DNA of 64,000 bases from Strigamia acuminata (lineage: Eukaryota; Arthropoda; Chilopoda; Geophilomorpha; Linotaeniidae): positions 62,133,369 through 62,197,368 of the forward strand of contig OX442314.1 of the NCBI GenBank assembly GCA_949358305.1, in the 5' to 3' direction. The translations under genes were made by a program, and so were the position numbers. Positions 3 through 50,337 of the stretch are shown here, in pieces. The notes beneath the pieces were generated by a model. That model was not told the DNA's origin, ran no database searches, and saw nothing but the letters and a program-made list of their open reading frames with translations. Each line of letters starts with the position of its first letter. Position 1 is the stretch's first letter.

Positions 3-3000
3 ATTGTTCCCATCTATTTGAATAAAGCAATAACATTGGACATGTTTGTACAACCATTGCATAATGTTACTGATAGATTTGCTGTGATAGGTTGTAAAAC
101 TTTAACAGATTTCAAGAACGGCAAAGGCATCATTCGAGTGGCTAACCCAACCAAGAAGACAGTCTTTCTGAAGGAGAAGTCAGCAATCGCAAAAGCTTAT
201 TATGTGGTTGATGTTGGGGTGTTTGATGAAAAACAGGTACACTGTTTTGACTTTGACTCCTCAATAGCAAAAGACAAAATGAATAAAGACCAACAAGAGC
301 AAATGCGACAACTTCTTCAAAAGAATCAAGACAGATTTGCTGTTTCTGATAAGGATTTGGGAAGAGTTCAAGTGTATAAGCATAAAATCGATACTGGAGA
401 CCATGACCCAATACATTTGCAACCGTATCGTCGTTCTATGAAGGAAAAAGAAGTCGAAGCAGAGGAAACAAAGAAATTGCTTGATATGGGAGTGATAAGG
501 GAATCAGAAAGTCCCTGGAGCGCGCCTGTATTGCTAATAAAGAAAAGAGATGGTAAGTGGAGATTTTGTGTCGACTGGAGACGTTTGAATGCGATATCAA
601 AGAAAATGGTGTACCCATTGCCAAGAATAGATGACACTTTAGATCAGCTGGCAGGTGCACAGTTCTTCTCCATGATGGATCTTATTCAAGGATATTATCA
701 AGTCGAAATAGATGAACAAGATCGTGAAAAAACAGCGTTTACCACTTCAAGCGGACATTTTGAGTTTAACGTCCTAGGAATGGGATTATGCAATAGTCCA
801 GCAGCTTTTCAAAAGCTAATGAACAAAGTTTTAGGCAACCTCCTAGGCAAAGTTTGTATAGCATACATTGACGACCTTATCATTTTCTCTAAAACATTCG
901 ATCAGCATTTGAAAGATTTAGACAACGTTTTCGATAAGCTTAGACAATCTAACTTAAAGGTGAAGTTGAGCAAGTGCACATTTGGAACGAACACCATCAA
1001 GTATTTAGGACATGTCGTGGACTCTGAGGGTATATCACCAGACCCAAGGAATCTGGAATCCGTCGCGAAGTTTCCAGTTCCTACTAACCTCAAACTTCTT
1101 CGAGGATTCATAGGGCTCTGTTCGTATTACAGGAAGTTCATTCCAAGTTTTGCGGACATATCCAAGCCCTTAGTCAATTTGACGAAGAAGGACGAGAAAT
1201 TTGATTGGGGCCCACCTCATGACAAGGCCTTCAAAACATTGAGGACCGCCCTTATCACCGTGCCAGTGCTTGCGCACCCTAATTTTGAAGAACCCTTCAT
1301 GGTATCGACAGACGCGAGCGCATATGGGCTTGGAGCAGTGTTGAAACAGAAGATAAACAAACAAGAACATGTGATAGCTTATGCCAGCAGACTTCTCAGC
1401 CAAGCAGAACAGAATTACACAGCCACAGAAAGGGAATGTCTGGCTATTCTGTTTGGAATTGAAAAGTACCGACCTTATCTGTATGGTAAGAAGTTCCAGA
1501 TAATTACAGACCATTCGGCACTCCAATGGCTAAAATCAGTCAAAAACCCCAATGGCAGACTAGCTAGATGGAGCCTACAGCTAGTAGACTTTGATTTCGA
1601 TGTGATATACAAGAGCGGAAAAGCGCACAAAGATGCCGACGCCTTGAGCAGAATTCCAGAAGATTTAAGCGAGGAAGAAAACGAAATAGTTCCCTCACTT
1701 TTACTCGAACAGCTCGACCTTCCTGCTGAGCAGCGTAAGGACAAGAAGCTACTGGAATTGATCACCGCAATGAATCAAGTAGAGCAACTTCCGAAGAAGA
1801 GAAGACGTCCTCTAAAGCAGTTCGTTCTTCTCGACAATGTGTTGTTTAGGAAGAAAAATTCTTTGAATTCCCTAGACACGGAAGTAAATCTGTTATATGT
1901 TCCGCAGCATTTGAAAACTGCAGTTCTTGAAGAAATGCATGACGGACTGACGGGTGCTCACTTGGGCCTAAACAAAACATGGAAGAGAATGAGAACAAGA
2001 TTCTTCTGGCCCCGGATATATAAAGACGTTAGAAATTACGTACTTTCTTGTCCACATTGCGCGAGCTCGAAATCAATGACAACAGCGCCAAAAGGTTTAA
2101 TGCAGCCGTGGTCTACGATATCTAAGCCTTTCGAGAGGATTGGAATCGATACACTGGGAAGTTTTCCGACCTCCGACAAGGGCAACAAGTATGTTTTCGT
2201 AATGACAGATTATTTGTCGCGGACAGTGATTGCTAGAGCAGCTCCAGCATCAACAGCATTGGAAGCAGCTAGAACCTTACTTTATGAGTTAATGTTGAAG
2301 GAAGGCAGTCCGAGAGAAATCCTGAGCGATAGAGGCACAGAATACAGAAACAAAATGGTGGAAGAAGTATCAAATATGTTTAAAGCCCTACACAAAACCA
2401 CTTCAGGGTACCATCCAAGGACCAATGGACTTACTGAGCGTTTTAATGCGACGTTTGCAAAAATGTTGCAGATTTATGTTGATAAGGACCAGAGGGACTG
2501 GGATGATTTTTTGCCATTTTTGCTTTTCTCGTATAATACCGGTGTGCACGAGACGACAGGATATACACCTTATTATCTTTTGAAAGGATATGAAGTTGAT
2601 TTGAATGTGGACGTAAACCTCAACTTACCTCAAAAAGAATTTACCTTGCGAACCTCAAAATTCATCAGAGAAGCTAGGAAGATAGCAAATGAAAGGTTGG
2701 AGTGGCAAGGAGAAAAAAGCAGAAAAAGATTCGATCAAGGCCGAGTTCATGTGGAATTTGACCCAGGAGAATTAGTATATCTCAAAACACCCAATAGAAA
2801 AGTTGGGTTAAGTGAAAAACTCCTACCACAGTTCTCAGGCCCATACGAAATAGTAAGAAGAACCGCGCCAAATGACTACGAAATTAGAAGTTCAAATGGA
2901 AAGAAAACAGATATTGTTAACATTGAACGATTAAAACCGTATAAACCCAGAGAAGAAATTCCAGCGGAGATATTAGAAGAATTGACGGCTAAAAAAGTCA

Positions 3001-3395
3001 CATTTGCTGATGAAATTGCAACACAAAGTGAAAAACAACAAGAAATTGAAGAAAACACATCAATTTCGCCAATTCCGATCGCTAAAGAACGATTCATTAG
3101 CGATGACGACCAAATTTCGTTAAAAACACTCTTTGAACCTGAAGAAAATACAATAAAAGTGTCAAATTTCCCAATTTCAAGTGAAAAAGAGCGATTAAAA
3201 GCGCTCTATGGACCGAAAGAAATTATGGAAAGATGGCAAAACGAAGACGAACGGAAAAACAAAGAAAATCAATTGCGAAAACCGCCGACAGGTGTCGCTG
3301 ACGCAGTCGATGACGCGTCGCCGCCTGAAATCGAGAGTTTCCGATCACGTCGCCTTCGCAAACAGGCTCGTCGTGACTATAGTGGATTGTGTTAA
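3..3395 (+). CDS. pol: Gyp-U1 pol: RT, RNase H, integrase (5'-partial)
   Basis: Ty3/gypsy polyprotein that copies the element RNA into DNA and integrates it. The frame is open to the window edge. The first listed start (TTG at 18) is not a real start, because residues before it match Gyp-U2 pol. Counting from 18, the RT active site YIDD is near residue 283. RNase H motifs TDASAYGLG, TDHSALQWL and DALSR lie near 431-550. The integrase HHCC zinc domain is near 640-680, with catalytic Asp near 710 (GIDTLG), Asp near 770 (SDRGTEY) and Glu near 806 (NGLTERFN). The C-terminus ends in a GPYEIV/ERLKPYKP tail followed by a charged region rich in K, E and R. No stop or frameshift interrupts it. It is clearly related to Gyp-U2 pol but diverged throughout, so the two are separate families rather than copies of one. 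Confidence 0.96.
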   Translation: MVPIYLNKAITLDMFVQPLHNVTDRFAVIGCKTLTDFKNGKGIIRVANPTKKTVFLKEKSAIAKAYYVVDVGVFDEKQVHCFDFDSSIAKDKMNKDQQEQMRQLLQKNQDRFAVSDKDLGRVQVYKHKIDTGDHDPIHLQPYRRSMKEKEVEAEETKKLLDMGVIRESESPWSAPVLLIKKRDGKWRFCVDWRRLNAISKKMVYPLPRIDDTLDQLAGAQFFSMMDLIQGYYQVEIDEQDREKTAFTTSSGHFEFNVLGMGLCNSPAAFQKLMNKVLGNLLGKVCIAYIDDLIIFSKTFDQHLKDLDNVFDKLRQSNLKVKLSKCTFGTNTIKYLGHVVDSEGISPDPRNLESVAKFPVPTNLKLLRGFIGLCSYYRKFIPSFADISKPLVNLTKKDEKFDWGPPHDKAFKTLRTALITVPVLAHPNFEEPFMVSTDASAYGLGAVLKQKINKQEHVIAYASRLLSQAEQNYTATERECLAILFGIEKYRPYLYGKKFQIITDHSALQWLKSVKNPNGRLARWSLQLVDFDFDVIYKSGKAHKDADALSRIPEDLSEEENEIVPSLLLEQLDLPAEQRKDKKLLELITAMNQVEQLPKKRRRPLKQFVLLDNVLFRKKNSLNSLDTEVNLLYVPQHLKTAVLEEMHDGLTGAHLGLNKTWKRMRTRFFWPRIYKDVRNYVLSCPHCASSKSMTTAPKGLMQPWSTISKPFERIGIDTLGSFPTSDKGNKYVFVMTDYLSRTVIARAAPASTALEAARTLLYELMLKEGSPREILSDRGTEYRNKMVEEVSNMFKALHKTTSGYHPRTNGLTERFNATFAKMLQIYVDKDQRDWDDFLPFLLFSYNTGVHETTGYTPYYLLKGYEVDLNVDVNLNLPQKEFTLRTSKFIREARKIANERLEWQGEKSRKRFDQGRVHVEFDPGELVYLKTPNRKVGLSEKLLPQFSGPYEIVRRTAPNDYEIRSSNGKKTDIVNIERLKPYKPREEIPAEILEELTAKKVTFADEIATQSEKQQEIEENTSISPIPIAKERFISDDDQISLKTLFEPEENTIKVSNFPISSEKERLKALYGPKEIMERWQNEDERKNKENQLRKPPTGVADAVDDASPPEIESFRSRRLRKQARRDYSGLC

Positions 3396-3810
3396 GGTTT
3401 TCTGAGACGAACCGGGTTTACTGTGTGACTCAAAGAAACCTAAAGCATTAATAACAGCAGCAGTTGATTTGTGTGTGATTCCGTAAGTGAAAAGAGTGGA
3501 TTTTGAACGAATTTGGCGAACAAATAGCTTAAAAACGAAACGAATCTATCGCGAATTTTGTGAGAAAATAACATCGCGAAATGGAAATTTAGGCTTAAAT
3601 AATTGTGTTAAATCTTCAAAATGAAATTTTAGTGTGTGCATATATTATCAAGTGACTAATTAGTTGAAGAATTGTTAAATTTAGTGTAATTTAGTGCAAC
3701 ATGAAATGTTAAATGAAATAGTGAATGAAAATTGGAATAATTTTGTGAATATTTTGGATTAATGAATTAATTTATTTTATTTTCTTTTCAAATAAAATAT
3801 TAGAATCCGA
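3396..3810 (+). other. Gyp-U1 spacer between pol and ORF3
   Basis: About 415 bp of AT-rich sequence with stops in all forward frames. There is no recognisable domain. How ORF3 is translated (spliced subgenomic RNA or reinitiation) is not evident; no strong donor/acceptor pair was identified by eye. Confidence 0.6.
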
Positions 3811-5184
3811 ATGGACGAAATGGCAAGCAAATTTGATCGGATGGATGTGCGTAGTGACAGTGACAGCGATGCGGATTCGGTTTGCTCGATGCAAGTGGGC
3901 GATCTTTTGGAACGTCAACTTAAGAAAGGCGATGACTTGGAAATTTATTTAGCAAATAAGCCGAGCACAAGTAAAACTTTGGACGAATTGGTTAACTGCC
4001 CACGCCCGTTTACAGAAGGAAAACAAAAGGCGGAGGAAGACAAAAAGAAATATGCAGGACCATTAACAAAGGGTGAAGAAGGCTTATTGCGTCGTCGTCG
4101 TAAGAATCGACAATTGAAACGAGATAAGAAAGCACAAAAGAAGAAAGTGTTTGACGAGCAATCGAAAAGAATCCGGGAAGAAGAAATGCGTCACACCGTT
4201 GATCGAAACAAACGCCGATTAAATGATTTGCGAATGGAGCACCGGAATATGGTCAACGCCATTAGAGCCAGGAAATTAAAAGGAGTGATGGGATTGCCCG
4301 ACTATCAGTTGTGGAGAACAGGGGCGAATGCTTTGCTGATCCAGGAGGCGAAGATAAGAAAAAACATTCTAAAAGCCATCGCCCTAGCGAGAAGAGAGTC
4401 CTTCCAGGACCCTAGTGTAGTATTTCCTACTCCTATACGGGTATACCGTGTGGAGTTGGACGCTGCACGACAGGTCCAGGCTCTCGGACTTGCATTAGAC
4501 TATAGTAATGCGCCAAAATATGACTTAGCATTCGACGCCGTAGGTTGTCCGCCGATTAAAGTCATGAACTATCAGATGGCAGCATTAGGCGATCTAACGC
4601 CGGGACGACAGAGCTGGACGTATGACAGCGTCGTTGATCACTACCTCCAACTGTTAGAAGAGCGATATCCCATATTGGCACCAATTCAATCTGAGTGGGT
4701 CTTCAAAATGGTGGACCCAGCTAAACGAAAGGAAGCGATCTATTGGCTAATGAAGAGACTTCCAAGTGCTCAAAAGAAGATTTGGGTGTTTCCAGTTCCT
4801 ATTGAAGAGCATTGGCAGCTTTTCATAGTGGATTGGCGGAAAAAGCCAACCCAATACGTGCTTTACGACCCAAGCGGACCAATAGAGCGCACATATCCAA
4901 AGTGGGAATCTTTAAGGTACTCGTTGATGGATGCAGGAGTAAAGTTTCCAAACAAATTCATACGTTGGGACCCGCCACGTATGCACCAATTGGATAATGA
5001 CAGCTGTGGCCCAACCATACTCTACTTCATTAGAAGATACGTTGAAGACCGTGACTTAATGCAGTTTGGGGAGCCATGTGAGTTACGCTTACGATTTGTG
5101 TACGAGATTGCAAATCGTGAAATTCTCCCATTCGAATTGATCAAGGAAGAGGATAAGAAAGATCAAGCGGAAGGAGGAGAGTGA
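3811..5184 (+). CDS. Gyp-U1 ORF3: Ulp1/C48-like cysteine protease
   Basis: A 457-residue protein encoded after pol, where errantiviruses carry env. It has no signal peptide or membrane segment. Residues 1-30 are acidic and Ser/Asp-rich. Residues about 80-150 are strongly basic and probably helical or coiled. The last 140 residues carry a papain-like Ulp1/adenain pattern: His334 in EEHWQLFIVDW, Asp353 in LYDPSG, Gln393 and Cys399 in QLDNDSCGPT. The Gln-to-Cys spacing of 6 and the His-Trp and D-x-C-G contexts are those of Ulp1/SENP proteases. Such enzymes cleave SUMO, ubiquitin-like or viral polyprotein substrates; the substrate here is unknown. The start is the first ATG of the frame and aligns with the start of the Gyp-U2 homologue (47146). 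Alternatives are a Gag-maturation protease or an inactive protein-binding fold. Confidence 0.85.
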   Translation: MDEMASKFDRMDVRSDSDSDADSVCSMQVGDLLERQLKKGDDLEIYLANKPSTSKTLDELVNCPRPFTEGKQKAEEDKKKYAGPLTKGEEGLLRRRRKNRQLKRDKKAQKKKVFDEQSKRIREEEMRHTVDRNKRRLNDLRMEHRNMVNAIRARKLKGVMGLPDYQLWRTGANALLIQEAKIRKNILKAIALARRESFQDPSVVFPTPIRVYRVELDAARQVQALGLALDYSNAPKYDLAFDAVGCPPIKVMNYQMAALGDLTPGRQSWTYDSVVDHYLQLLEERYPILAPIQSEWVFKMVDPAKRKEAIYWLMKRLPSAQKKIWVFPVPIEEHWQLFIVDWRKKPTQYVLYDPSGPIERTYPKWESLRYSLMDAGVKFPNKFIRWDPPRMHQLDNDSCGPTILYFIRRYVEDRDLMQFGEPCELRLRFVYEIANREILPFELIKEEDKKDQAEGGE

Positions 5185-5593
5185 AGTGAACTTTAACTTC
5201 TTTAAGTGAATAAGTGTAAAATCAACACGAACTTTGAACATTTTTTTTTGTGTGTGTTTTTTTTTATTTTATAGAAAATTGAAAACTGAAAAAAAAAGTA
5301 ATATAAAACAAAAAACCAAAAAGTGTCATTATTGATGAAAAGTGTTAATTTTATTTAATTTTAAACTTTGAAAATTGTTTCCAATGTAGAAATGTAATAA
5401 AAAGTGACTATGACATTTACAAACATTGAAAAGTGTATCATACTATATTTTTGTAAAAATAAGGATGATGAAAAGAGATTCTCAAAAATTGTAAAATTGA
5501 GTTTATGATTTGAATTTTTTAATGTGAAAGGAGATGCGTTAGTTAGAACAATTCATTGTTTTTCGAGAGACCGAAAAAATTAAAGGGGGGGGC
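5185..5593 (+). other. Gyp-U1 3' untranslated region with polypurine tract
   Basis: AT-rich, T-tract-containing sequence with no ORF. It ends in a purine run (about 5582-5592, 'aaagggggggg') one base before the LTR, which is the expected plus-strand primer site. Confidence 0.8.
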
Positions 5594-6086
5594 TGTTACG
5601 CGGTAGAGCCGTACCGTGTATCGGCTGGCTCTGCTCGCTCTGTTTAGGCATTTAATGCAATGAATTCTCACTAGACGGCGCTGCGCACCTAATTAGATGC
5701 ACAGACCGTTCAACTTAGTTGATAGGGGGAATAGGAGTTTACTTAGTGAGCTGATTAAGCCAGAGAGCTCAGATCTCTTTTGATTCTCAAACTGTTACCT
5801 TCACCTACTACTGCCAGCCGGTTGACGGTCAGGCAGGACTAGGTTTCCTGAATTGAATTGAATAAACAACAGCATCATCCTTATTTGATTTGAATGAACC
5901 ATTTATGTGTTTTAGGTTTAATAAATGAACAAATGTAATAAGAGCTGATGACCGAACATTTACATTAGTAAATGTCCGACTTTGAACAATAAAGCCAACA
6001 GGCATTTTACATATAAAACCCTGTGTCATTCTTGATTGAATTCATGTCACGTAGGACTAAATCAATCCCCATTTAGCCACGTAACA
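5594..6086 (+). repeat. Gyp-U1 3' LTR (493 bp)
   Basis: It begins TGTTACGCGG after the polypurine tract and ends CCACGTAACA. Both ends share TGTTAC...CACGTAACA with the 517-bp LTR of Gyp-U2, although the middle differs. The 5' partner LTR lies outside the window. Confidence 0.9.
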
Positions 6087-6550
6087 ATATATACTCGGTG
6101 AGGAGAATAGCTGTTCAGTGATCCAATGGGATCACTGGGCAGTCAAATCCATCCAATCCTAGATCACAGGAAGTGGATACTCAGGACATAGTCTTCTACT
6201 AGGTCCACTACAGGAACTGGATACGCAGGACACACTTTGGATTAAGTCCTTTTGACTATAATCCGAAAGGAGTCCAACTCACAGCGGGTGATGAAGGGTG
6301 ACTTCACCAGGTGTAAAGTTTGCACATAATTCAATAGAATTATGTGACAAATAAATCAACTAGTTTTTAAACATCCAAAAGTATTTAAAAGTGTCTAAAG
6401 TTGCAGTGGAATAAAATATAAATAGTAATTTATATTTTATTCACTCAAAAATTGTCGAAATTTGAATTTACCGCTAAAACGCATCAGCGCCATCTATTGG
6501 TGAAATAATCGTCCTATACTAACAAAGTGTATGACAGTGTAACCGTCACA
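6087..6550 (-). repeat. Gyp-L 3' LTR, interrupted by Gyp-U1
   Basis: 464 bp matching 23177-23640 with one noticed mismatch. The inner end is TGTGACGGTTAC on the minus strand. It is preceded on that strand by a short purine run, AAGGGGGACT (plus 6551-6560), the polypurine tract. The rest of the LTR would lie beyond Gyp-U1, left of the window. Confidence 0.9.
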
Positions 6551-7116
6551 AGTCCCCCTTAAATATATGTTAATTCCATTGAATTTACATACTATTTACT
6601 CATCTTGAGGATCAAGACCACACTGTCATCTAGGGAACTCGAGCTGAAATTCTTGGTAAGTGAAATCTCTATTTTATAACTTAATCATATAAAATAAAGT
6701 TCAACCTTCAATCAAATGCTTCAAAATATTTATTAAGATTTTTAGAAAAATCAGAATAATCAAAACCTGTACATTAAGTGACCTTAATACTAACAAAATC
6801 TTTTTTCCCATTACAGAGAGGCTTATCTCAACAATAGAACGAAACAACGGAATAACATCAAAAGTGTAACTTATTAATAAAATGACAAATTTGAACATGA
6901 ATTTTTACAGTCTTCGACTTGAAAATGTAAAAATCACACAGAATAAATCTTGTTACGGGTTAAAACTTGTTAATAAACTTCAATAATTATCTAAATTCTA
7001 CCAATGGACTACTCCAAAAATTATCACAAAGAAAGAATTCCTGTAGACCGTGTTGCTTCTGGCTTTAGTGGCAAGTTGAGGAAAGCAACATATCCTCAAC
7101 TGCAAGCGCTTTTTCT
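6551..7116 (-). other. Gyp-L 3' untranslated region
   Basis: AT-rich sequence between the end of the extra ORF and the 3' LTR. It holds the polypurine tract at its LTR end. I see nothing else in it. Confidence 0.6.
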
Positions 7117-8787: not shown

Positions 8788-10089
8788 TGCATCTTCAAGA
8801 AAATATAAATTTTATTTGAGAACATGAATCGAAACGTCGGCAACTAATTTAATTTAAATTAAACTAATTGTCAACCTAAAATCGGGTTAAATTCCATAAT
8901 TAATTCTTAAGTTCCTTTCGTTAGAGTGTTTCTTTTATTTGCCGAATAACTATTAAAATTAATAATTATTCTTGACTCGGTAGATAATTTCATCTTATCC
9001 TTTAAAACGGCATCGTTGATAAAATATTCAAATTAGTGTTTATTAAATAAAATAAACCTAATTTTGGCATCTAAACGACATGATAACTAAAAAACCTGTC
9101 AAAATATTAAAAAATATTTTTGCAAGTATTTTTAGTACCTGACAATAGTCACTTTACATAATTCTAACTGTACGAATAACTCTATAATTCGTCCGAGTAA
9201 ATAATCTATTATCGACATCTGGTGGCGTTTGTTATTATCATACACGTGACTTGTTAACACATGTATGCTCACCAATTTCAAAGGAATTTAAGAGACATTT
9301 TATTTTCATAAAATAAACACTTACGAACTAGGTGGAGTCCTAGAAGGGTATATTTGGCTAATTTAACGTCTAGCTTCACGTATTTGCGAGGGCTGCCCGA
9401 TTCCGGCGACGTTGGCCGATAAAAACGTTGTGCGGCGCGTGCGAATTCTAAGTCTGCCGTAATGAACGCTTAACCAAAATAAATGTTGTCAATTAATGTC
9501 AAAATATTATAAATTTTGACAAAATATTGCTTAAATATTTACCGGGAATTCACTTAGTGAGTTCGTGAAAGGCTTACTCGCGATTTGTCCACGAGATGGT
9601 TTCGATAATCAACGTCGTGTCGATAATTTCTGAATTTGAACTGATATTCGTCAAATGAAAAAATCAGTAAAATAAACGATAAGTGTTCAAAATCATCTAG
9701 ATTTTAACTCACTAAATTTCAGCGAAAATCCGTTAAAGCGTCGAAGAGTTGAGAATAATCCTTGGTTTCAGTCCAGTGTAAAACTTGGTGAACAAGTGAG
9801 TGATAATCTCAGACCAGGGGTTAAGGGGAGTTTCGAGGAGTAATTTGATTGGTTTGTAATTACTCATCTCGAAGTTTCTATTGACCCAAAGGGGGAAACA
9901 TAGTTTCAAGTAAATGTTTACACGTAGATTAATTTAAATACAATCGGCCGTGTAAAAATAACTCAAACATTTGTTAGATTTTATTCACACCAAAAAAAAT
10001 GTTTTTAATTAATAAAATTTAACAATCCTTCGTGAATATGATTGGAAATATTTATTTTAAAATAAAATATTTTCAATATATTGTGTTTT
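8788..10089 (-). other. Gyp-L spacer between pol and ORF3
   Basis: 1.3 kb, AT-rich, with no long ORF on either strand. The stretch just upstream of the ORF3 ATG (minus strand, 'tatattttcttgaag' then 'atgcaatg') could be a weak 3' splice site. A spliced mRNA for ORF3 is therefore possible but not shown. Confidence 0.5.
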
Positions 10090-12408: not shown

Positions 12409-12613
12409 TGTTGGTTCCTATTCGGTTCCACAAAGATTTCGAATGTCCAAGTAATGAAAACACACGTTGTAACGGGAACATAAAATAACACGTCTTTACT
12501 TTACGGTAAATTTTACAACAATTCAATTGCACGTGCATTACGTGCGTGCAACGTTCACACATTTGATAACGTTAAAACCTTTGATAATTTGTAACAATAG
12601 ATTAAATCTAACA
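12409..12613 (-). repeat. Cop-1 3' LTR (205 bp)
   Basis: Direct repeat of 16961-17165. On the minus strand it is preceded by a purine stretch (plus 12614-12626, 'aaccctccttaca') acting as polypurine tract. Confidence 0.95.
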
Positions 12614-12733
12614 AACCCTCCTTACAAATTTTTATAAGTTTTAAAATGAATTAAGAAAAACTAAAACTAACATTCAATGAAATTCGAAAACAAAAACAAA
12701 AAACATGAATAAAATATTATTTCGAACTTAAAA

Positions 12734-16834: not shown

Positions 16835-16940
16835 TTTTCACGACGTTCGATTTTCGAATTCCGTCACGTGCGCACTTCGTTCTCACTCGAATCTTCGAAA
16901 AATGTCGTCTGAGTGCCGTGGATACTTCTTTTCGAAGAAA

Positions 16941-16958
16941 AACCACCCTCTGCTACCA
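16941..16958 (-). other. Cop-1 primer-binding site (initiator-Met tRNA 3' end)
   Basis: On the minus strand TGGTAGCAGAGGGTGGTT, two bases from the LTR. It is complementary to the 3' end of eukaryotic initiator-Met tRNA (…CTCTGCTACCA), with at most one mismatch. This is the standard copia-type primer site. Confidence 0.9.
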
Positions 16959-16960
16959 CT

Positions 16961-22030: not shown

Positions 22031-22048
22031 ATCTCGGTAGAACCTCCA
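22031..22048 (-). other. Gyp-L primer-binding site (tRNA-Gln-like)
   Basis: Plus-strand ATCTCGGTAGAACCTCCA is the tRNA-like sequence; its complement on the minus strand starts TGG AGG. It matches the 3' end of eukaryotic tRNA-Gln (…ATCTCGGTGGAACCT-CCA) with one difference. It lies two bases from the LTR end at 22051, which fixes that boundary. Confidence 0.8.
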
Positions 22049-39935: not shown

Positions 39936-40015
39936 GTTCAGTGAACAACCGTTCTATTTGCTTAATTTTTCGACACTTTTTTGCGAAATTCGCGAATTTG
40001 CGCCGATATTTATAT

Positions 40016-40532
40016 TGTTACGAGGTTGACGAGCACACTGTGAACCAGTTGTCGCCACCTCGCTTCCGTAACTAAACGATTCGAATTAATGCTGTAAACC
40101 CTCACTAGAGTTCGCCTTAAGCGAATGATCTCACTAATTTACCCATTAAGTAATAGTAGAATCACCCAAGTTTACTTGGCTGATGAGGAGAACTGAAACG
40201 TCAGTTCATTCCGAGCTTTCATACCGAGAGGTTGTCGGGCAGGTACTGCCGCGGCATCTTGAGGTTCTTCACCCACCAAAGTTATTCATGCTTACTAGAT
40301 TTAAGATAGTTTTATAAGATTTAGTTTTAAGTTAATCTTTGGTTCATTTCAGATTGTATTTATGATTTAATAAACATACAGTTATATTTTATTAATAATA
40401 CAATGAGTCCTCTTTATTTCCTTCTTATTAGCAACACAGTTAAATGCTAGTTTAACTTAATGCAATTACAAACCCCCAGTTTAATATAAAGTATTTACGT
40501 GGTCAAACAGTAGTCAGTCTGGCCACGTAACA
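40016..40532 (+). repeat. Gyp-U2 5' LTR (517 bp)
   Basis: TGTTACGAGG...CACGTAACA, matching 48998-49514 base for base as far as read. Confidence 0.96.
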
Positions 40533-40535: not shown

Positions 40536-40550
40536 TGGTGGAGATTGCGG
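40536..40550 (+). other. Gyp-U2 primer-binding site (tRNA-Ala-like)
   Basis: TGGTGGAGATTGCGG, three bases after the LTR. The first ten bases match the complement of the tRNA-Ala 3' end (…ATCTCCACCA) and three of the next five agree. The assignment is tentative. Confidence 0.6.
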
Positions 40551-41190
40551 TTCTTTCTATTTGAGACCCATTAATTGGCTAAAAGTAGTGAAAAGTAGTA
40601 AAAGTAAAGTGAAATTGGCCAGTTATTTGCTAAAATTAGAAGATCCATTTGAAATCCGTACAAATTTGCATTAAAATTCAGTAAAATTCAAGTGAAACTC
40701 ATATAAAATTTTGAAAAGTTGCAAACTCATTTGCATGAGTGATAAGATTGAAAGGTGACTCATTGTGAAAACTTTCTTTTAGGGTCAATTGCAGTTGAAT
40801 ATTTAATTATAGTGCACTAATAAGATTTACATATTTGAATTTATTAAAGATATTTACTCAAGTTGAATTTATAATAAAATGAGGTTGTTTTGGAGGTTAA
40901 GAGTGGTGAATATTCAATGTTTGTTTAATGATAAAACTTATATTAATAATGATTCAATTATAGGAAATGTTTTCTTTTTGGTTTATGTAGAAGTTTATGT
41001 TGATTTTGATGATTAATTTTGATTATTTTTCAGGAAATAATAATAATTTTTTTTTGTTATTGAAATTTATTTTGAATTAGTGACTAATTGTGATAATTAA
41101 TTGTGCATAAGTTTGTTTCAGGGTTAGTGAAAGTTGTGAGTTGCTACAGCGTTGTGTGAATAAAGTGAAGGTATAATTTAAGGCTTAACA
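40551..41190 (+). other. Gyp-U2 untranslated leader
   Basis: About 640 bp, AT-rich, with many short purine-rich repeats ('aaaagtagt'-like near 40580). There is no ORF. Packaging and dimer signals are expected here but none is identifiable. Confidence 0.6.
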
Positions 41191-42540
41191 GTGGATCAGC
41201 CAGTTAAGTTATCACAGGCGCAAGTGGATAATCTACTGGACTTAAAGAATCAAGAATTAGAAAGAGAATTAGTAAGCACAGTGGATGATTCCAAAGTAGC
41301 GGTTAGAAAAAGGAAAACAACTTCACAGTCGGAACCTGGAATAAAGGAGGTTGAGCAAAATACTTCCACATTGGATGATAAACTTGTTTTTGCAACCCCA
41401 TTAAAATTTGCGCAATCAAAGTCTTTTCAATCAGTATTTGAATTGTTAACGCCAGTAAAATTAAAGGAATCCACATCAAAAGGAACTGTATCCAAGATGG
41501 CGGATCCAACAACAGTTTTAACTGATCTTCTCAAGGGTATTTTGATACAAAAGCGCGAAGTTGTTTGTTATGATACAGAAAAAGGTAACATCGACCAATG
41601 GCTTGTGGCTTATGAAGCTACAATAGCATCAGATGATGAACGAGTGAAACAATTGCCGTTAGCCCTTAAGACTGACGGACTGGCATGGTTTGTGGAACAA
41701 TATAAAACGAATCCAACCTGGACTTGGACAGAATGGAAGCCACAAATCGAAAAGAAGTTCAGGAAAAGCCAGGAAAATGTATTGAACACTCTTCATTTTA
41801 TGAGGCATTCAGATGGTAAAGCCGATGCATTTATGAAGAAGGTCTTGGCCGAATGTGCTTATGCGCGACCAGAATTACCTGAGAATTTGAAGATTAATTA
41901 CATTTTTCAAGGATTGAAGCCGGAAATGCAAAAGATGTTGATTACTGTATTCCCGAAGACTTTGGCGGATATGGAAGAGAGAATTAAGTTATTCGAAAGT
42001 CATAAAGTAAAAGACCCAGCAGATGTTCTACTTGCAGCGTTTAAAAAAATCGTGGACGAGAAGGCGATCCCGGTAACAGCAGGTAAACTGAGTGGAACCG
42101 TGGGGACCCAACCAACCCACGCTGAATTGTTAGCTGAAGTCGCTGATTTAAAGCGGCGATTGTTAGAAGCAGAGTCAGTGGATTTGCTGGATGAAGAGTC
42201 GATACTGATACAAAATCAGTGGTATGCGCCAATAAGGAATAGGGGACAGTATAATCAAGGAGGTAGAAGTAGAGGCGGTAGACAAGGCTTTAATCCTAAT
42301 TATAATAATTATAATACTAACAATAGTAATAATTCTAATAACCGTTCATGCGGATGTTATCATCATTTCAGCTGTGAGTTTTACAATCCACCCAGGCAAC
42401 AACAACAACAACAACAGCAGCAACAGGAAAGAGGTGGAAGTAACAGCTGGAAGTGGAATAAAAAGAGGAGAAGAGGTGAACAGCAAGATGGAAACCCTAA
42501 TCCTCAGGCACAAACGAAGGCTCAAAATTCGAAAAACTAG
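41191..42540 (+). CDS. gag: Gyp-U2 gag
   Basis: Gypsy Gag, structural protein of the particle. The open frame begins after an in-frame TAA at 41179, but its first likely start is GTG (41191). The first ATG is at 41497 (codon 103) in a good context (AAGATGG), giving a 347-residue protein; a GTG start would give 449 residues. The central part resembles retrotransposon gag (GNIDQWLVAYEA, WTEWKPQIEKKF, INYIFQGLKPEM). The C-terminus lacks a classical CCHC knuckle. Instead it is Gly/Arg-, Asn- and Gln-rich with a Cys/His cluster CGCYHHFSC and a run of about ten Gln. It ends TCG AAA AAC TAG, the frameshift site. Confidence 0.9.
   Translation: MDQPVKLSQAQVDNLLDLKNQELERELVSTVDDSKVAVRKRKTTSQSEPGIKEVEQNTSTLDDKLVFATPLKFAQSKSFQSVFELLTPVKLKESTSKGTVSKMADPTTVLTDLLKGILIQKREVVCYDTEKGNIDQWLVAYEATIASDDERVKQLPLALKTDGLAWFVEQYKTNPTWTWTEWKPQIEKKFRKSQENVLNTLHFMRHSDGKADAFMKKVLAECAYARPELPENLKINYIFQGLKPEMQKMLITVFPKTLADMEERIKLFESHKVKDPADVLLAAFKKIVDEKAIPVTAGKLSGTVGTQPTHAELLAEVADLKRRLLEAESVDLLDEESILIQNQWYAPIRNRGQYNQGGRSRGGRQGFNPNYNNYNTNNSNNSNNRSCGCYHHFSCEFYNPPRQQQQQQQQQQERGGSNSWKWNKKRRRGEQQDGNPNPQAQTKAQNSKN
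42531..42537 (+). promoter_or_regulatory. Gyp-U2 candidate -1 frameshift site
   Basis: GAAAAAC directly before the gag TAG. Pol is open in the -1 frame from 42501 (after a TAA at 42498), so the two frames overlap for 40 bases. The heptamer is a near-canonical relative of A AAA AAC and occupies the same place as in Gyp-L. Confidence 0.65.
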
Positions 42541-45500
42541 TTGAACGGCCACAGAGAAATTGTTGCCACCCAAAGAAAAGGAAAAGACAAAAGAAGAAGA
42601 GTAAGATAATTATAATTGACGTTCAGGTATCAGAATCATTGTTGGAGATCCCAGTAATTGTAAAAGAAATGGAAATAAAAGCGGTAATGGACACTGGAGC
42701 CAAACGAAACCTGCTAAGCGAAGAAGTTGCAATAGCTCTTCAATTGGATTATTCACCCAGCCCTAACATTAGGCTACGTGGGATAGGAAAGGATTTGGTA
42801 GTTCCAGTGGGTAAAACAAAAATGAACATTGCAATTGGAAAACTGACCTATAGAGTGGAAGTGTTAATAGTGTCAGGATTTCATCATCAGCTTTTGTTGG
42901 GGGATCCATTCATGAGGTCAACGAGAACTGTCGTCGATTATGATTTACAAAAAATCTTTGTGGGCCGGAACAATGATAGTGGAGTAGAAGAAGCAGTTTT
43001 TCCAATAAATAGATCATTTTCGGACCAGAGTTATGTTGCCAGAGTAATGAAGAATATCTCAATTCCACCAATGCATGAATGCGTTATACCAGTTTATTTA
43101 AATACAAAACTAACCACAGAAATGTTTATGGAACCTCTAGGAAATGTAATAGATAGGTTTGGAATTTTGTGTTGTAAAACATTAACAAATTTTGAGTATG
43201 GTAAAGGAGTTCTGCGTGTGGCTAATCCAACAAACAAATCAGTCTTTCTGAAGGAGAAATCTGCAATTGGTAAGGCGTATTACATTATCGAAATTGGGTT
43301 GTTGGATGAGAAGCAAGTGCATTGCTCTGACTCCTCAACCAAAGCGGTTGAGTTGACAGATGAAAAGCAAGTGCATTGCTTTGACTTTGACTCCTCGATT
43401 GCTAAAGATAAGATGAACAAAAGCCAACAAGAGCAGATGAAGCAGTTACTTCAAAAGAATCAGGATAGATTTGCAGCCACAGACAAAGACTTAGGTAGAG
43501 TAACAACATTTAAACACAAAATTGATACGGGGGACCATGATCCAATACATTTGCAGCCTTATAGACGTTCAATCGCAGAAAAAGAAGTAGAGGCAGAAGA
43601 GACCAGAAAGTTGCTTGAGATGGGAGTCATTAGAGAGTCAGAAAGTCCATGGAGTGCACCAGTACTTCTCATCAAGAAAAGAGACGGTAAATGGAGATTT
43701 TGTGTCGATTGGAGGAGGTTAAACGCGATCACAAAGAAAATGGTATACCCACTGCCCAGAATTGACGATACATTGGACCAACTGGCAGGGGCCCAGTATT
43801 TTTCGATGATGGATCTTATTCAAGGATATTATCAAGTCGAAATAGATGAACAGGATCGTGAAAAAACAGCGTTTACCACTTCAAGCGGACATTTTGAGTT
43901 TAACGTCCTAGGAATGGGATTATGTAATAGCCCAGCTGCGTTTCAAAAATTGATGAATAAGGTGCTTGGTAATCTTCTTGGCAAGGTCTGTATAGCTTAC
44001 ATTGACGACCTTATAATATTTTCAAAGACATTTGATCAGCATCTTCAGGATCTCGATGCTGTCTTCAGCAAGCTGCGGTTGGCAAACTTAAAGGTTAAAC
44101 TCAGCAAATGTACGTTTGGTACTAATACCATCAAATATTTAGGCCACATAGTTGATTCTGATGGAGTGTCACCTGATCCACGTAATTTGGAAAGTGTAGC
44201 TAAATTTCCAAAACCAACAAATTTGAAGCAGTTGAGAGGGTTTTTGGGTTTATGTTCGTATTATCGAAAGTTTATTCCAGGATTTGCGGACGTATCTAAG
44301 CCCTTAGCCAACTTAACTCGCAAAGATGAAGCTTTTGATTGGGGACCATCACAGGAAACAGCGTTTAAGGCCTTACGGACAGCTTTAGTTACGGTACCAG
44401 TATTGGCACATCCAAATTTTGCAGAGCCATTCATTGTATCTACGGATGCAAGTGCTTATGGGCTCGGTGCAATTCTGAAGCAGCGTATTAACAAGCAAGA
44501 ACATGTGATTTGTTACGCCAGTCGATTGTTAAGTACAGCGGAACAGAATTACACAGCTACGGAAAGAGAATGTTTAGCCATAATATTCGGCATTAACAAG
44601 TACAGACCATATCTTTACGGTAGGAAATTTACAATTGTGACAGACCATTCTGCGTTACAATGGCTGAATAAGGTGAAAAATCCCAACGGTAGATTGGCCA
44701 GGTGGAGTTTACAACTGGTAGATTACGACTACGATGTGATGCATAAGTCAGGCAAGAAGCACACGGATGCAGATGCTCTTAGCCGAATCCAAGAAGAGAT
44801 TGGTGAGGAAGAAAAAGAAATTATTCCCTTACTACTTCTCGAAAAACTCAACTTACCTGTAGAACAGCGTAAGGACGAGAAAATTTTGGAGATCATCACC
44901 GCAATGGAGAACATTGAGCAACTTCCAAGAAACAGGAAACGTCCTTTAAAACAGTTCGTTCTCCTGGATAATACGTTGTTTAGAAAGAAAAGTTATAATT
45001 CTCTAAACATGGAAGGAAACCTTTTAGTAGTACCGCAGCATTTACGTAAGCAAGTGTTAGAAGAAATGCATGACGGGCTCGTAGGTGCTCATCTCGGCCT
45101 AAATAAGACGTGGAAAAGGATTAGAGTAAGATTCTTTTGGCCGAGGATATACAGGGACGTAAGGAATTACGTTCTCAGTTGTCCACATTGCGCAGGAAGT
45201 AAGTCAATGACCACTCCACAAAAAGGTTTATTACAACCTTGGTCGACGATTTCAAGACCGTTCGAGAGGATTGGTATAGACACGTTAGGAAGCTTTCCAG
45301 TTTCAAATAGTGGAAATAAATTTGTTTTTGTCATCACTGATTATTTATCGCGTGCAGTCATTGCCAGAGCGGCTCCAGCATGTACAGCGTTGGAAGCAGC
45401 GAAAACTCTTGTATTCGAGGTAATGCTCAAAGAGGGAAGTCCACGCGAGATACTCAGCGATAAGGGGACAGAGTACAGGAACGAAATGATCAATGAAGTA

Positions 45501-46583
45501 TCAGCACTGTTTAAATCCCAGCACAAATCTACTTCCGGGTACCATCCAAGGACCAACGGATTAACGGAAAGATTTAATGCAACATTTGCCAAAATGTTGA
45601 CATGTTATACTAATAAAGATCACACAGATTGGGATGAATTTTTACCATTTGTCATTTTCTCCTATAATTCAGCAGTCCATGAAACAACTGGATATACCCC
45701 ATATTATTTGTTGAAAGGTTATGAAGTTGATTTGAATGTGGATGTGAACTTGAACCTTCCTCGAAAGGAATTCACTCTTCGCACTTCTAGATTTATGCGG
45801 GAGATGCGGAAAATTGCCAACGAAAGATTAGAATGGCAGAGTGAGAAGAGCAAGAGAAGATTTGATTTGGACAGAATTGTGGTGGAATTCGAACCAGGGG
45901 AATTGGTTTACTTGAAAACCCCGAATAGGAAAGTAGGGTTAAGCGAAAAACTCCTGCCGCCATTTTCTGGACCATATGAAATAGTTAGACGCACAGCGCC
46001 AAACGATTATGAAGTAAGGAATTCATCAGGAAAGAAAACTAGTATTGTCAATGTTGAGCGTTTAAAACCATACAAGCCGCGAGAGGAAATTCCAGAAACT
46101 ATTCTGCAGGATTTACCACCGAAGAAAGTAACATTTTCTGATGAAGTGCAAGGAAGTTCGCAAAAAGACGATCAAAATGCGGAAATTGCGAAGAAGGACG
46201 AAGATTCGCGAGATAGGCCTAAAGTAGAAGTAAATGAAAGGTTTATTGATGATGACGATCAAATTTCGTTGCGGAATTTCTTTGAATCCGAAGATAGAGC
46301 GTCGGATTTACCGGTTCTAACTGAGAAGGAGCGACTGAAGGCAATTTACGGGCCGAAAGAAATTGAGGAACGTCGGGCGAAAAAGGAGGTTGAGTTAGAA
46401 CAGCGAAATCAGTTGCTAAAATCGTCGCCAGACGAAAGCAAGAAGAATCGGTTGCAGAAACCATCACCAGGTGTCGCAAATGCTGTTGGCGCCGATACGC
46501 ATGCGCGACGTCCTGCTGAAAGTGATTTCCGGTCACGACGACTTAGATCGCAACCACGCCAAGATTACACTGCATTTTACTAG
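42531..46583 (+). CDS. pol: Gyp-U2 pol: PR, RT, RNase H, integrase
   Basis: Made by -1 frameshift from gag; the TTG at 42639 is only a nominal start, and numbering below counts from it. The aspartic protease VMDTGAKRNLLS is near residue 17. A linker of about 200 residues follows, with a short duplicated segment: 'DEKQVHC' occurs twice (near 43306 and 43360), the second copy matching Gyp-U1. RT active site YIDDLIIFS is near 454. RNase H motifs are TDASAYGLG, TATERECLA and DALSR. The integrase has an HHCC domain and catalytic residues in GIDTLGSF, SDKGTEY and NGLTERFN. The tail is GPYEIVRRTAPNDYEVR then a charged, disordered C-terminus ending DYTAFY. There are no lesions. It differs from Gyp-U1 pol mainly in the linkers and tail. 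Confidence 0.96.
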   Translation, partial: EKLVERPQRNCCHPKKRKRQKKKSKIIIIDVQVSESLLEIPVIVKEMEIKAVMDTGAKRNLLSEEVAIALQLDYSPSPNIRLRGIGKDLVVPVGKTKMNIAIGKLTYRVEVLIVSGFHHQLLLGDPFMRSTRTVVDYDLQKIFVGRNNDSGVEEAVFPINRSFSDQSYVARVMKNISIPPMHECVIPVYLNTKLTTEMFMEPLGNVIDRFGILCCKTLTNFEYGKGVLRVANPTNKSVFLKEKSAIGKAYYIIEIGLLDEKQVHCSDSSTKAVELTDEKQVHCFDFDSSIAKDKMNKSQQEQMKQLLQKNQDRFAATDKDLGRVTTFKHKIDTGDHDPIHLQPYRRSIAEKEVEAEETRKLLEMGVIRESESPWSAPVLLIKKRDGKWRFCVDWRRLNAITKKMVYPLPRIDDTLDQLAGAQYFSMMDLIQGYYQVEIDEQDREKTAFTTSSGHFEFNVLGMGLCNSPAAFQKLMNKVLGNLLGKVCIAYIDDLIIFSKTFDQHLQDLDAVFSKLRLANLKVKLSKCTFGTNTIKYLGHIVDSDGVSPDPRNLESVAKFPKPTNLKQLRGFLGLCSYYRKFIPGFADVSKPLANLTRKDEAFDWGPSQETAFKALRTALVTVPVLAHPNFAEPFIVSTDASAYGLGAILKQRINKQEHVICYASRLLSTAEQNYTATERECLAIIFGINKYRPYLYGRKFTIVTDHSALQWLNKVKNPNGRLARWSLQLVDYDYDVMHKSGKKHTDADALSRIQEEIGEEEKEIIPLLLLEKLNLPVEQRKDEKILEIITAMENIEQLPRNRKRPLKQFVLLDNTLFRKKSYNSLNMEGNLLVVPQHLRKQVLEEMHDGLVGAHLGLNKTWKRIRVRFFWPRIYRDVRNYVLSCPHCAGSKSMTTPQKGLLQPWSTISRPFERIGIDTLGSFPVSNSGNKFVFVITDYLSRAVIARAAPACTALEAAKTLVFEVMLKEGSPREILSDKGTEYRNEMINEVSALFKSQHKSTSGYHPRTNGLTERFNATFAKMLTCYTNKDHTDWDEFLPFVIFSYNSAVHETTGYTPYYLLKGYEVDLNVDVNLNLPRKEFTLRTSRFMREMRKIANERLEWQSEKSKRRFDLDRIVVEFEPGELVYLKTPNRKVGLSEKLLPPFSGPYEIVRRTAPNDYEVRNSSGKKTSIVNVERLKPYKPREEIPETILQDLPPKKVTFSDEVQGSSQKDDQNAEIAKKDEDSRDRPKVEVNERFIDDDDQISLRNFFESEDRASDLPVLTEKERLKAIYGPKEIEERRAKKEVELEQRNQLLKSSPDESKKNRLQKPSPGVANAVGADTHARRPAESDFRSRRLRSQPRQDYTAFY

Positions 46584-47145
46584 CTTTTCTTTAAGTGAAC
46601 GCAAGTTATTTGCAGTGAGCGAAGGGAATTGTTATTCTCCGAGTGTGATTGACGAGGATTTCGCATATTTTCTGTGAAAGTAGGTACTTTTAATTGACGA
46701 AAGTTAATATGAACGTAGACGAGACGTGACACGATTTTGAAGTTGTATTTTCTTGTTTTTTGAGGCGAACGCAAGTTATTTGCAGTGAACCAAGAATAAC
46801 TCGAATTTACTAGTTGATTTGAACAATTTTGAGACATTTTTCTCCAGTTTTGGATAATATTAATAAAAGTGCCGAAAGTGAACAGAACGGAACGAATCTA
46901 TCGCCATTTTTCCAGCGAATAAAGAGAACTTCGCACATTTTTGAAATGTTAACTTGACATTTAATTTTAAAATTTAATAGAAATAGCTATGAATATTTAA
47001 TTGGTTTAGATGAAATAATTTAAATATTGTATAAAGTTAAAAGTTTAACGAAATTTAGACAAATTGATTGTGAACATGAATTGTATTGGCCATTAATCAA
47101 TTGTAATTAATGAATTTAATTTATTTTTGCACATATTAGACTTGA
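46584..47145 (+). other. Gyp-U2 spacer between pol and ORF3
   Basis: About 560 bp, AT-rich. A 19-base segment 'gcgaacgcaagttatttgcagtga' occurs twice in near-identical form (46597-46620 and 46763-46788). No ORF. The duplicated segment could be a regulatory or translation signal for ORF3; this is a guess. Confidence 0.55.
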
Positions 47146-48507
47146 ATGGACGATATGACGGGAAAATTTAGTCGGATGGACGTAAAAGACAGCTCAGACG
47201 AAGACGACAATATTTCCGTGTGTTCGGGAGTTTCGACCCAGATGTTTGACTTATATGACAGGCAGTCGGAGTTGGAACACTTGGATGTCTTGGCTGAGGA
47301 GGAAGACATTGCAACTGTTCCCATTAAACCGTTGTCCGAACTGGTAACATTTAAGCGACCATTCTCCGAACGTAAAGAACTCGGTGCGCGGCCGAAAGTT
47401 TATGACAAGCCCTTGACGCCGAAACAACTTAGCAAGATTGAGCGCCGAAAACGCTGTGAGCAAAGGAGAAGAATGGCGGATACAGCGGAAAAGCGCGCGT
47501 TCACGAAAAAGGGACTTCAAGTCATCAAGAAGCAGGCTGAGAAGACAGTAACCCGAAATGAGAAGCGTCTTGGAGAACTTAGAGTCGAGCAGCGCTGTAT
47601 GACCGAGGAAGTGAGGAAAAAAGGTCTGAAAGGCCTTGATGGACGGTTGGTCTTTGAAGCATGGTTTCGTGCGGCAGATAAATTGCTTCAGTATGAGGCC
47701 AAGATCAGACGCAATATCCAGCGTGCGAAAGCGCTCGGGCGGCGCGAGTATAAAGAAGACCCTTGTGTAATTTTGCCAAAACAACTGATACTCTATCGCG
47801 TTCGTTTACAAGGAGATCAACAGATGGAGGCGTTGGAAGCAACGGTAGCTTTTAGTTATCGACCAAAGCATGAAACAGCGATTACTATGTCAGATGACCC
47901 GTCCATAATTATAACCAATAGGGAAATGGCGTCTCTTGGACACCTTGCGCCAGGTGAAAGGGCTTGGGTTCATCCAAGTGTGATTGATCATTATTTGCGA
48001 ATGCTCGCAAAATTTAATGAACGAGTATGGGCAGTCAGAGTCGACTTTGTCGAAATGATGCTAGACGCCGAGCGGTTTCCAGAAGCATGGAGATGGATGA
48101 AGAAAACCCATGACCATTATGGGAAGTCAATTTGGATTTTTCCTATACCGGAAATCGATCACTGGCAATTGTTTGTGGTCGATTGGACCAAATTTCCAAC
48201 ACAGGTAACGCTCTACGATCCGAGTGGGGTTCTGACTTTCAGTTGCCCTGCTTGGGAGCGAGTGCATAATTGTATTGTCGGGGCTGGAATGGTTTTTCCA
48301 CGGGGCTATGAGAAGTGGGACCCGCCCCGCATGCAGCAGCTTGACGGTGACAGCTGCGGGCCCACTATCTTATATTTTGCCCGCCGATATATTGAAGACA
48401 GGGACAACATGCGCCATGGCCATCCGATCGATTTGCGCCAGCGAATAGTGTACGAGATCTTACACGAGAAGTTGATCCCATTCGAAAAGGAGGAAAACCA
48501 GCCTTAA
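47146..48507 (+). CDS. Gyp-U2 ORF3: Ulp1/C48-like cysteine protease
   Basis: 453 residues from the ATG at 47146, homologous along its length to the Gyp-U1 product (3811-5184) but clearly diverged. It has the same acidic N-terminus (MDDMTGKFSRMDVK), a basic helical middle (residues about 90-170) and a C-terminal protease-like domain. The catalytic set is His339 (DHWQLFVVDW), Asp358 (LYDPSG), Gln398 and Cys404 (QLDGDSCGPT). Spacings His-Asp 19, Asp-Cys 46 and Gln-Cys 6 are identical to Gyp-U1. Retention of all four residues in two diverged copies points to selection for catalysis. The family (Ulp1/SENP/adenain fold) removes or cleaves ubiquitin-like proteins or processes viral proteins. Location and substrate are unknown. 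There is no signal peptide or membrane segment. Confidence 0.87.
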   Translation: MDDMTGKFSRMDVKDSSDEDDNISVCSGVSTQMFDLYDRQSELEHLDVLAEEEDIATVPIKPLSELVTFKRPFSERKELGARPKVYDKPLTPKQLSKIERRKRCEQRRRMADTAEKRAFTKKGLQVIKKQAEKTVTRNEKRLGELRVEQRCMTEEVRKKGLKGLDGRLVFEAWFRAADKLLQYEAKIRRNIQRAKALGRREYKEDPCVILPKQLILYRVRLQGDQQMEALEATVAFSYRPKHETAITMSDDPSIIITNREMASLGHLAPGERAWVHPSVIDHYLRMLAKFNERVWAVRVDFVEMMLDAERFPEAWRWMKKTHDHYGKSIWIFPIPEIDHWQLFVVDWTKFPTQVTLYDPSGVLTFSCPAWERVHNCIVGAGMVFPRGYEKWDPPRMQQLDGDSCGPTILYFARRYIEDRDNMRHGHPIDLRQRIVYEILHEKLIPFEKEENQP

Positions 48508-48997
48508 TCGGACATTAAGAGTTGTGTGAAATTATTTTTTTGTGTATTATTTATTTTGTATTATTCGTCAATGATGTGAGCCCAGGTGTACTGGAGCGAG
48601 CAGAGACATGGTTTTTTTTTTCTTTATTATTTGAAGTTGATATTGTTTTTCTTAATTTTGTTATTGTTTTCATTTTCATTCACATTGAATGTAGTGTATA
48701 TTATTTTTTTTGAATTATTAGTTTGTATAGAAAATAGGAAAACTGAGAAAAAAAAGTAATATAAGTGTAAAAATATCAAAAAGTGTTAATCTTGAAAGTG
48801 TATTTGTGTAATAGTTGACATATGATTTTGAATTTTTGTAATTTGAAATTGTTTTTAGTAAATGTTGTTTAAAGTATAAATTTTGTGAAAGTAAGCATGA
48901 ATAACAGGGAATGAACTCATATATAAGCATGAACAACAAGGGAGTTTGTTTAGTTAAATAACTTGTTTTTGGGGTCCAAAAATCTAAAGGAGGGGGC
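48508..48997 (+). other. Gyp-U2 3' untranslated region with polypurine tract
   Basis: T-rich, then AT-rich, without an ORF. It ends 'aaaggaggggg' plus one C before the LTR, the polypurine tract. Confidence 0.8.
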
Positions 48998-49514
48998 TGT
49001 TACGAGGTTGACGAGCACACTGTGAACCAGTTGTCGCCACCTCGCTTCCGTAACTAAACGATTCGAATTAATGCTGTAAACCCTCACTAGAGTTCGCCTT
49101 AAGCGAATGATCTCACTAATTTACCCATTAAGTAATAGTAGAATCACCCAAGTTTACTTGGCTGATGAGGAGAACTGAAACGTCAGTTCATTCCGAGCTT
49201 TCATACCGAGAGGTTGTCGGGCAGGTACTGCCGCGGCATCTTGAGGTTCTTCACCCACCAAAGTTATTCATGCTTACTAGATTTAAGATAGTTTTATAAG
49301 ATTTAGTTTTAAGTTAATCTTTGGTTCATTTCAGATTGTATTTATGATTTAATAAACATACAGTTATATTTTATTAATAATACAATGAGTCCTCTTTATT
49401 TCCTTCTTATTAGCAACACAGTTAAATGCTAGTTTAACTTAATGCAATTACAAACCCCCAGTTTAATATAAAGTATTTACGTGGTCAAACAGTAGTCAGT
49501 CTGGCCACGTAACA
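48998..49514 (+). repeat. Gyp-U2 3' LTR (517 bp)
   Basis: Identical by eye to 40016-40532, followed by the ATAT duplication. Confidence 0.96.
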
Positions 49515-50337
49515 ATATTTACAGTTTTCCCGGCGCCATTTTGGATCCGATTTTCGTCTCGAGTACGTCGACAACGGACTACGGACGTTTACAGACGACC
49601 AGGGTCGTCTATCACATCATCAGCCGTCTAATTTTCTCCGAAATTCCGCGGGATTCGCGAATTTCGAGAGAAATCTTTTGTATTTGCAGATTTTTCGCCG
49701 ATTTTCCATTCGTCAACGTCGAAGAGACGTTTAACATCGAGAAACGGATCGAATTCCGCTGTGTCTTACCCCGGCGTATGCACAGTATCGGCGATTTTGT
49801 TTTGTTAGCGACGATCTTGCACTTTTCTTGCGAAGAGCCTCATTTAATGAGAAGAATTTGGGTTTTCGAACCCAAATTGCGCTTTTTATCCGGTTTTTTT
49901 TGAGAAAAACCGAGCCGTGCCCTCATTTGCACGAGAAATTGCAACAGCAATCGATTCATCTATTTCTCCTTCTTCGTATTTACCTTTGTTAGTATTAAGA
50001 GGGGATTTTGGTGGGACATTTAGAATCCTCAACGCCCTACGTTCGATTCCGAACACCGCGTTGTTGTATTCTGTGACAAGGCTGAGCCCTGCGCCACCCG
50101 ACACTCCCGTGACCCCAGGTGGTCGTAAAGGACGTCGGGGGGACACTTGTCACAGGTTGTCAGTCGATTGCAGCATCGACTCCCAATTTTGGTCTTCCGC
50201 TTCGAACAACGGGGGATCAGTGAAGTGCAGTGCTACGGATTGTGAACAGTTTTGTGCGACGAGTCAGTGCCACTTTCTGAGCTTTTGTGTTCTCCGCGTT
50301 GTGTTGCGTTCTTCGCGCACCGATTCACCGATTTGTG
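49515..50337 (+). other. Cop-2 leader (rest)
   Basis: Untranslated leader of Cop-2 downstream of Gyp-U2. It has moderate GC and no domain-bearing frame. The forward frame 49917-50396 ends inside gag in another frame and looks accidental. Confidence 0.6.

Follow-up and report, generated by a model that had tools for sequence, protein, structure and literature searches.

A 64,000-nucleotide stretch of the genome of the centipede Strigamia acuminata (assembly GCA_949358305.1, contig OX442314.1, positions 62,133,369 to 62,197,368; hereafter, the window) contains two copies, A and B, of a Ty3/gypsy lineage of long terminal repeat (LTR) retrotransposons, in which a third open reading frame (ORF3) lies between pol and the 3' LTR (Table 1). 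Element A enters the window from the left, its 5' part lying beyond the window edge. Its ORF3 (P0001; 3811–5184, plus strand) is an open ATG frame of 457 codons that starts 415 nt past the stop codon of pol, and the original prediction of an intact frame of this length after pol was thereby borne out. Element B, an addition to that prediction, which had named ORF3 of A only, is a complete element of the same lineage (40016–49514) with an intact homologue of ORF3 at the same place, starting 562 nt past the pol stop codon. Both copies in the window (2/2) thus have the gene, and because the second copy also carries it, ORF3 belongs to the element lineage. When a profile of the two proteins was run against all 702 stop-to-stop frames of at least 40 amino acids in the window, only the two ORF3s matched, and the next best frame had an E-value of 0.32.

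The assignment to Ty3/gypsy is based on the order of the Pfam matches, which is protease, reverse transcriptase (RT), RNase H and integrase in B, and RT, RNase H and integrase in A. Other hallmarks of an LTR element are present in B, namely, paired LTRs with TG...CA ends, a polypurine tract and a 4-bp ATAT duplication; of the LTRs of A, the 3' LTR alone is in the window, and its bounds were set by the TG...CA ends and by likeness to the LTR of B. The putative primer binding site of B, TGGTGGAGAT, resembles the complement of the 3' end of a tRNA that we take to be tRNA-Ala, and no tRNA genes or Rfam families at gathering score were found in the 64-kb window. The gag-like ORF of B had no match in Pfam. 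Between pol and the 3' LTR, the longest stop-free runs are 462 codons in A and 453 codons in B, whereas the maximum in 500 first-order Markov resamplings was 143 in both cases; the ORF3 frames are therefore longer than chance predicts.

Table 1. Features of elements A and B in the window (position 1 is the first nucleotide of the window).
Feature	Element	Position	Strand	Remarks
pol	A	3..3395	+	RT, RNase H, integrase, C-terminal extension; Pfam RVT_1, RT_RNaseH, Integrase_H2C2, rve
AG of putative 3' splice site	A	3802..3803	+	ends 7 nt before ORF3 start codon; aligned to B
ORF3	A	3811..5184	+	acidic N-terminus, basic segment (about 81–200), C48-like domain (about 263–443)
Polypurine tract	A	5582..5593	+	AAAGGGGGGGGC; abuts 3' LTR
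3' LTR, 493 bp	A	5594..6086	+	TGTTACG...CGTAACA, then ATAT; ends inferred
Target site duplication, left	B	40012..40015	.	ATAT; from sequence
5' LTR, 517 bp	B	40016..40532	+	517/517 bases same as 48998–49514
Putative primer binding site	B	40536..40545	+	TGGTGGAGAT; 3 nt past 5' LTR
Candidate 5' splice site	B	41171..41172	+	AAG/GTATAA (slash, exon end), upstream of gag; pattern only
gag-like ORF, 347 aa	B	41497..42540	+	ORF call; from first ATG of the frame
pol frame (stop to stop)	B	42501..46583	+	retropepsin, RT, RNase H, integrase; overlaps gag in a different frame
AG of putative 3' splice site	B	47138..47139	+	ends 6 nt before ORF3 start codon
ORF3, 453 aa	B	47146..48507	+	C48-like domain; H339, D358, Q398, C404
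Polypurine tract	B	48986..48997	+	AAAGGAGGGGGC
3' LTR	B	48998..49514	+	equals 5' LTR, 517/517
Target site duplication, right	B	49515..49518	.	ATAT; from sequence

The original prediction, that ORF3 encodes a cysteine protease of the Ulp1/C48 type as a third gene of a Ty3/gypsy element, is supported by the comparisons made here. Translation of ORF3 of A places the proposed catalytic residues as predicted, with H334 in HWQLF (starting at 334), D353 in LYDPSG (starting at 351), and Q393 and C399 in QLDNDSCGP (starting at 393). The order His-Asp-Gln-Cys, with Gln six residues before Cys, is found in both A and B and aligns with SENP1; all four residues are in register between the two ORF3s, so that the Cys and His are kept in both of the copies within the window. 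Against the sequences in PDB, the E-value of the match to SENP1 was 3e-4 with A alone, 9e-9 with B alone and 3e-10 with the two-sequence profile, and B alone matched SENP/Ulp1 peptidases only. All 14 of the distinct sequences found with the profile at E ≤ 1 are C48 peptidases, including SENP2 (1e-5) and yeast Ulp1 (1e-5). The Pfam family PF02902 (C48) scored 11.8 bits in A and 14.5 bits in B, below the curated cut-off of 20.7 bits, and by the Pfam criterion ORF3 would be a divergent relative of C48 rather than a called member. In a structural comparison, a model of the domain ranked C48 structures first, which is consistent with a Ulp1-like fold, although the model is of low confidence (predicted template modelling score, 0.55); a full-length model of the pair of ORF3s was poor, with a predicted local distance difference test score (pLDDT) of 42. 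In the BFVD database, none of the 831 matches reached E ≤ 0.001, and the best one was a Feldmannia virus protein of unstated function (E = 5e-3). A weak match in NCBIfam, to InaC (E = 0.058), was taken as chance. In short, homology of ORF3 to the C48 (Ulp1/SENP) peptidases is well supported by the sequence comparisons.

Outside the C48-like domain, residues 1–80 of ORF3 are acidic and residues 81–200 are basic, with a net charge over 81–120 of +11 in A and +9 in B. The poor full-length model shows the basic segment as helix, with block pLDDT values that are mostly 57–75, and no convincing database match was found for the basic N-terminal half. The two copies share 79% amino-acid identity in pol and 42% in ORF3. 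For ORF3, the proportion of differences was 0.85 at synonymous sites (pS), which are saturated, and 0.42 at nonsynonymous sites (pN), and the pN/pS of 0.49 (bootstrap interval, 0.43–0.56), compared with 0.17 in pol, shows that the ORF3 protein is under constraint, clearly weaker than that on pol. Within the C48-like domain, A and B have the same residue at 34 of the 44 positions in windows that we set around the four catalytic residues, versus 53 of 137 elsewhere, and in a circular-shift test only three of the 181 shifts (the unshifted one counted) reached 34 identities. Conservation within the domain was thus shown to be highest at the tetrad and its flanks.

A T-rich stretch followed by ATATTAG, aligned between A and B, is located directly upstream of both ORF3 start codons. 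With the candidate sites listed in Table 1, a spliced mRNA for ORF3 is plausible. Most of the spacer between pol and ORF3 is divergent; one block in it, AACGAATCTATCGC, is the same in A (3539–3552) and B (46891–46904).

We could not find any homologue of ORF3 outside the window, either with P0001 (E ≤ 1e-3) or with the two-sequence alignment (E ≤ 1), among about 5.8 billion proteins, by a search that needs shared five-residue words and scored the 7997 candidates with the most shared words each time. The DNA collections scanned for relatives of ORF3 were those of viruses, phages and prokaryotes: viral contigs contained relatives of neither ORF3 nor pol, tblastn of P0001 gave no match in phages, and a scan of genome contigs with the ORF3 pattern gave a sole match, in a Polaromonas record, which was judged to be chance and overlaps a 511-aa ORF that is presumably a photolyase. 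The search with pol yielded 1344 relatives among 7982 scored candidates. The 120 of these that were listed had at most 52% identity, and those with names were mostly from arachnids; no ORF3 fused to pol was recognized among these 120 of 1344 relatives (best E-value, 1.5).

C48 enzymes remove the small ubiquitin-like modifier (SUMO) or related modifiers from proteins. For ORF3, we consider the chances to be about even that it stems from the capture, by a Ty3/gypsy lineage, of a cysteine isopeptidase of the C48 (Ulp1/SENP-like) type, now a third gene located between pol and the 3' LTR, and that its product is made from a spliced mRNA and counters SUMO-dependent silencing. The protein would be translated from a spliced subgenomic mRNA, as is env of other LTR elements; the basic N-terminal half may bring it to chromatin, to RNA or to the particle of the element; and the C48 domain would strip SUMO, or a modifier related to it, from those host factors by which the element is silenced or blocked, thereby permitting transcription or integration of the element. 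Besides silencing factors, the original prediction named Gag or integrase as proteins from which SUMO could be removed. The fast divergence of ORF3 relative to pol would fit a moving host target. A narrower version, which we regard as possible and hold with more reserve, is that selection maintains the SUMO protease in the lineage for counter-defence: the enzyme would desumoylate the host machinery of small-RNA or heterochromatin silencing where the element is located, and the divergence would reflect an arms race.

SUMO conjugation participates in the transcriptional silencing of genomic elements (PMC8131101 and PMC8585004). In the yeast work (PMC8585004, in part), inactivation of Ubc9 or deletion of both Siz1 and Siz2 raises Ty1 RNA, and its authors concluded that Ty1 is activated when some factors are less SUMOylated; in C. 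elegans, SUMOylation of HDA-1 is required for Argonaute-directed silencing (PMC8131101, in part). Because lowered SUMOylation activates Ty1 and silencing needs SUMOylation, a desumoylase acting locally would favour the element. A point of caution is that loss or untethering of the host Ulp1 also raises Ty1 RNA, according to passages of PMC8585004, so the direction of the SUMO effect is not simple. A SUMO-type protease that an LTR retrotransposon itself encodes, and that looks intact, would be a candidate for an anti-silencing factor of retroelements; it would allow a direct test of whether a single captured enzyme alters host SUMO conjugates and the expression of the element.

Other explanations of ORF3 differ in the substrate or in whether catalysis matters. 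It is unlikely, in our judgement, that ORF3 serves maturation as an endoprotease of the adenovirus type, like those of Polintons and large DNA viruses, and cuts Gag or a different element protein inside the particle. Gly-Gly pairs, a kind of site favoured by adenovirus-type maturation proteases, do occur in the Gag of B. The African swine fever virus protease pS273R and the poxvirus core protease I7L are also among the structural matches, ranked after the Ulp1/SENP group; the 50 VIA-align matches listed do not show the adenovirus protease, but absence from that list does not exclude a family. Polintons have an adenovirus-like cysteine protease (PMC4028283, in part). However, the likeness in sequence is to SENP/Ulp1, and none of the 14 profile matches in PDB is a viral maturation protease; moreover, pol already has a retropepsin, so that ORF3 would probably not be needed as the protease of the particle. 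A deubiquitinase or deneddylase that, instead of targeting SUMO, prevents the ubiquitin-dependent destruction of Gag, integrase or cDNA complexes would agree with the presence in the structural list of the NEDD8 protease Den1, NopD and XopD (the last two also solved with ubiquitin), and with the occurrence of either an OTU or a Ulp1 domain in Ginger1 transposases (PMC2836005, in part), which suggests interchangeable roles around ubiquitin-like tags. Nevertheless, the top sequence matches are SENP1, SENP2 and Ulp1, with no NEDD8 protease among the 14 profile matches, and this role, too, seems improbable.

ORF3 might instead be a captured host SENP-like gene in which catalysis is irrelevant and whose use lies in the basic N-terminal half, which could act, for example, in RNA binding or packaging; the basic charge common to A and B and the much faster divergence of ORF3 than of pol would agree with this. 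If catalysis were dispensable, one would not expect conservation to be higher at the tetrad and its flanks than elsewhere in the domain, and we think this explanation very unlikely. A frame located between pol and the 3' LTR is commonly taken for env (passages of PMC5408684), and ORF3 might then be an envelope-like gene with an accidental likeness to C48. This reading was rejected, its probability being almost nil: the C48 matches are consistent, and ORF3 is unlike an envelope protein because it lacks any strongly hydrophobic segment, the 19-residue Kyte-Doolittle mean peaking at 0.72 and 0.69. The capture of a C48 isopeptidase that acts on SUMO or a related modifier is the explanation that we prefer.

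ORF3 resembles SENP1, SENP2 and yeast Ulp1 in the His-Asp-Gln-Cys order, the Gln-Cys spacing and the HW motif over about 180 aligned residues, but it differs from them in being a gene of an LTR retrotransposon, in having DSCGPT at the cysteine, in scoring below the Pfam C48 cut-off and in its unmatched basic N-terminal half. The C48 fold is also related to that of the Polinton protease. Among mobile elements, Ginger1 likewise associates a gypsy-type integrase with a Ulp1 (or OTU) domain, but it moves by cut and paste as a DNA transposon and has the domain inside the transposase, whereas A and B are LTR elements with RT and a separate ORF3; Mutator elements with Ulp1-like domains are also cited (both in passages of PMC2836005). 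NeSL and Utopia-1_TSP are retroelements with a Ulp1-like cysteine protease domain, but they are non-LTR elements and the domain is N-terminal in the encoded protein (PMC4640811, in part). The LTR retrotransposons of bdelloid rotifers have non-envelope enzymes as ORF3 between pol and the LTR, as in A and B, although these are GDSL esterases and DEDDy exonucleases in the passages of PMC5408684, in whose main text the words 'ulp' and 'sumo' have no occurrence. Polintons combine a cysteine protease with an RVE-family integrase, but the protease is an adenovirus-like maturation protease and the element a large DNA transposon (passages of PMC4028283). We could not find a C48/Ulp1 enzyme as ORF3 of an LTR retrotransposon in the titles, abstract openings and passages searched, with Repbase and most subscription papers outside the search; the passages were from PMC2836005, PMC5408684, PMC6338049, PMC7998251, PMC2774666, PMC4640811, PMC7264820 and PMC11118728. 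Ulp1-like domains in mobile elements and enzymatic ORF3s in LTR elements are both known, and ORF3 adds an LTR element to the protease-carrying mobile elements (Ginger1, Mutator-like elements, NeSL/Utopia and Polinton).

The insertions of A and B look recent, B because its two LTRs are identical. On its right, the 3' LTR of A is flanked by the LTR of a further gypsy element, E2. At this junction, the sequence from 6087 is ATATATACTCGG, compared with GGGGGATATATACTCGG in the right LTR of E2; A stops exactly where the left LTR of E2 starts to match its partner, so A was most likely inserted at ATAT inside the LTR of E2. E2 (6087–23640, minus strand) has LTR stretches that match at 463 of 464 positions, a gag-like frame (19129–21231) and pol frames (17090–19180 and 10090–12417) that are split by a nested Copia element (12409–17165, minus strand), in which an unbroken gag-pol frame of 1367 aa lies between identical repeats of 205 bp. 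A third ORF is found after pol in E2 too (7117–8787, minus strand; 556 aa); it has a Cys-rich stretch, CPLCAGC...CVNC, and no match in Pfam, NCBIfam or PDB. A satellite with a period of about 41 bp (23640–27018) adjoins the right LTR of E2, and related tandem arrays exist at 27930–29600 and 59790–60096, the former of which is crossed by minus-strand frames that encode repeats such as NGTSERPNGT.
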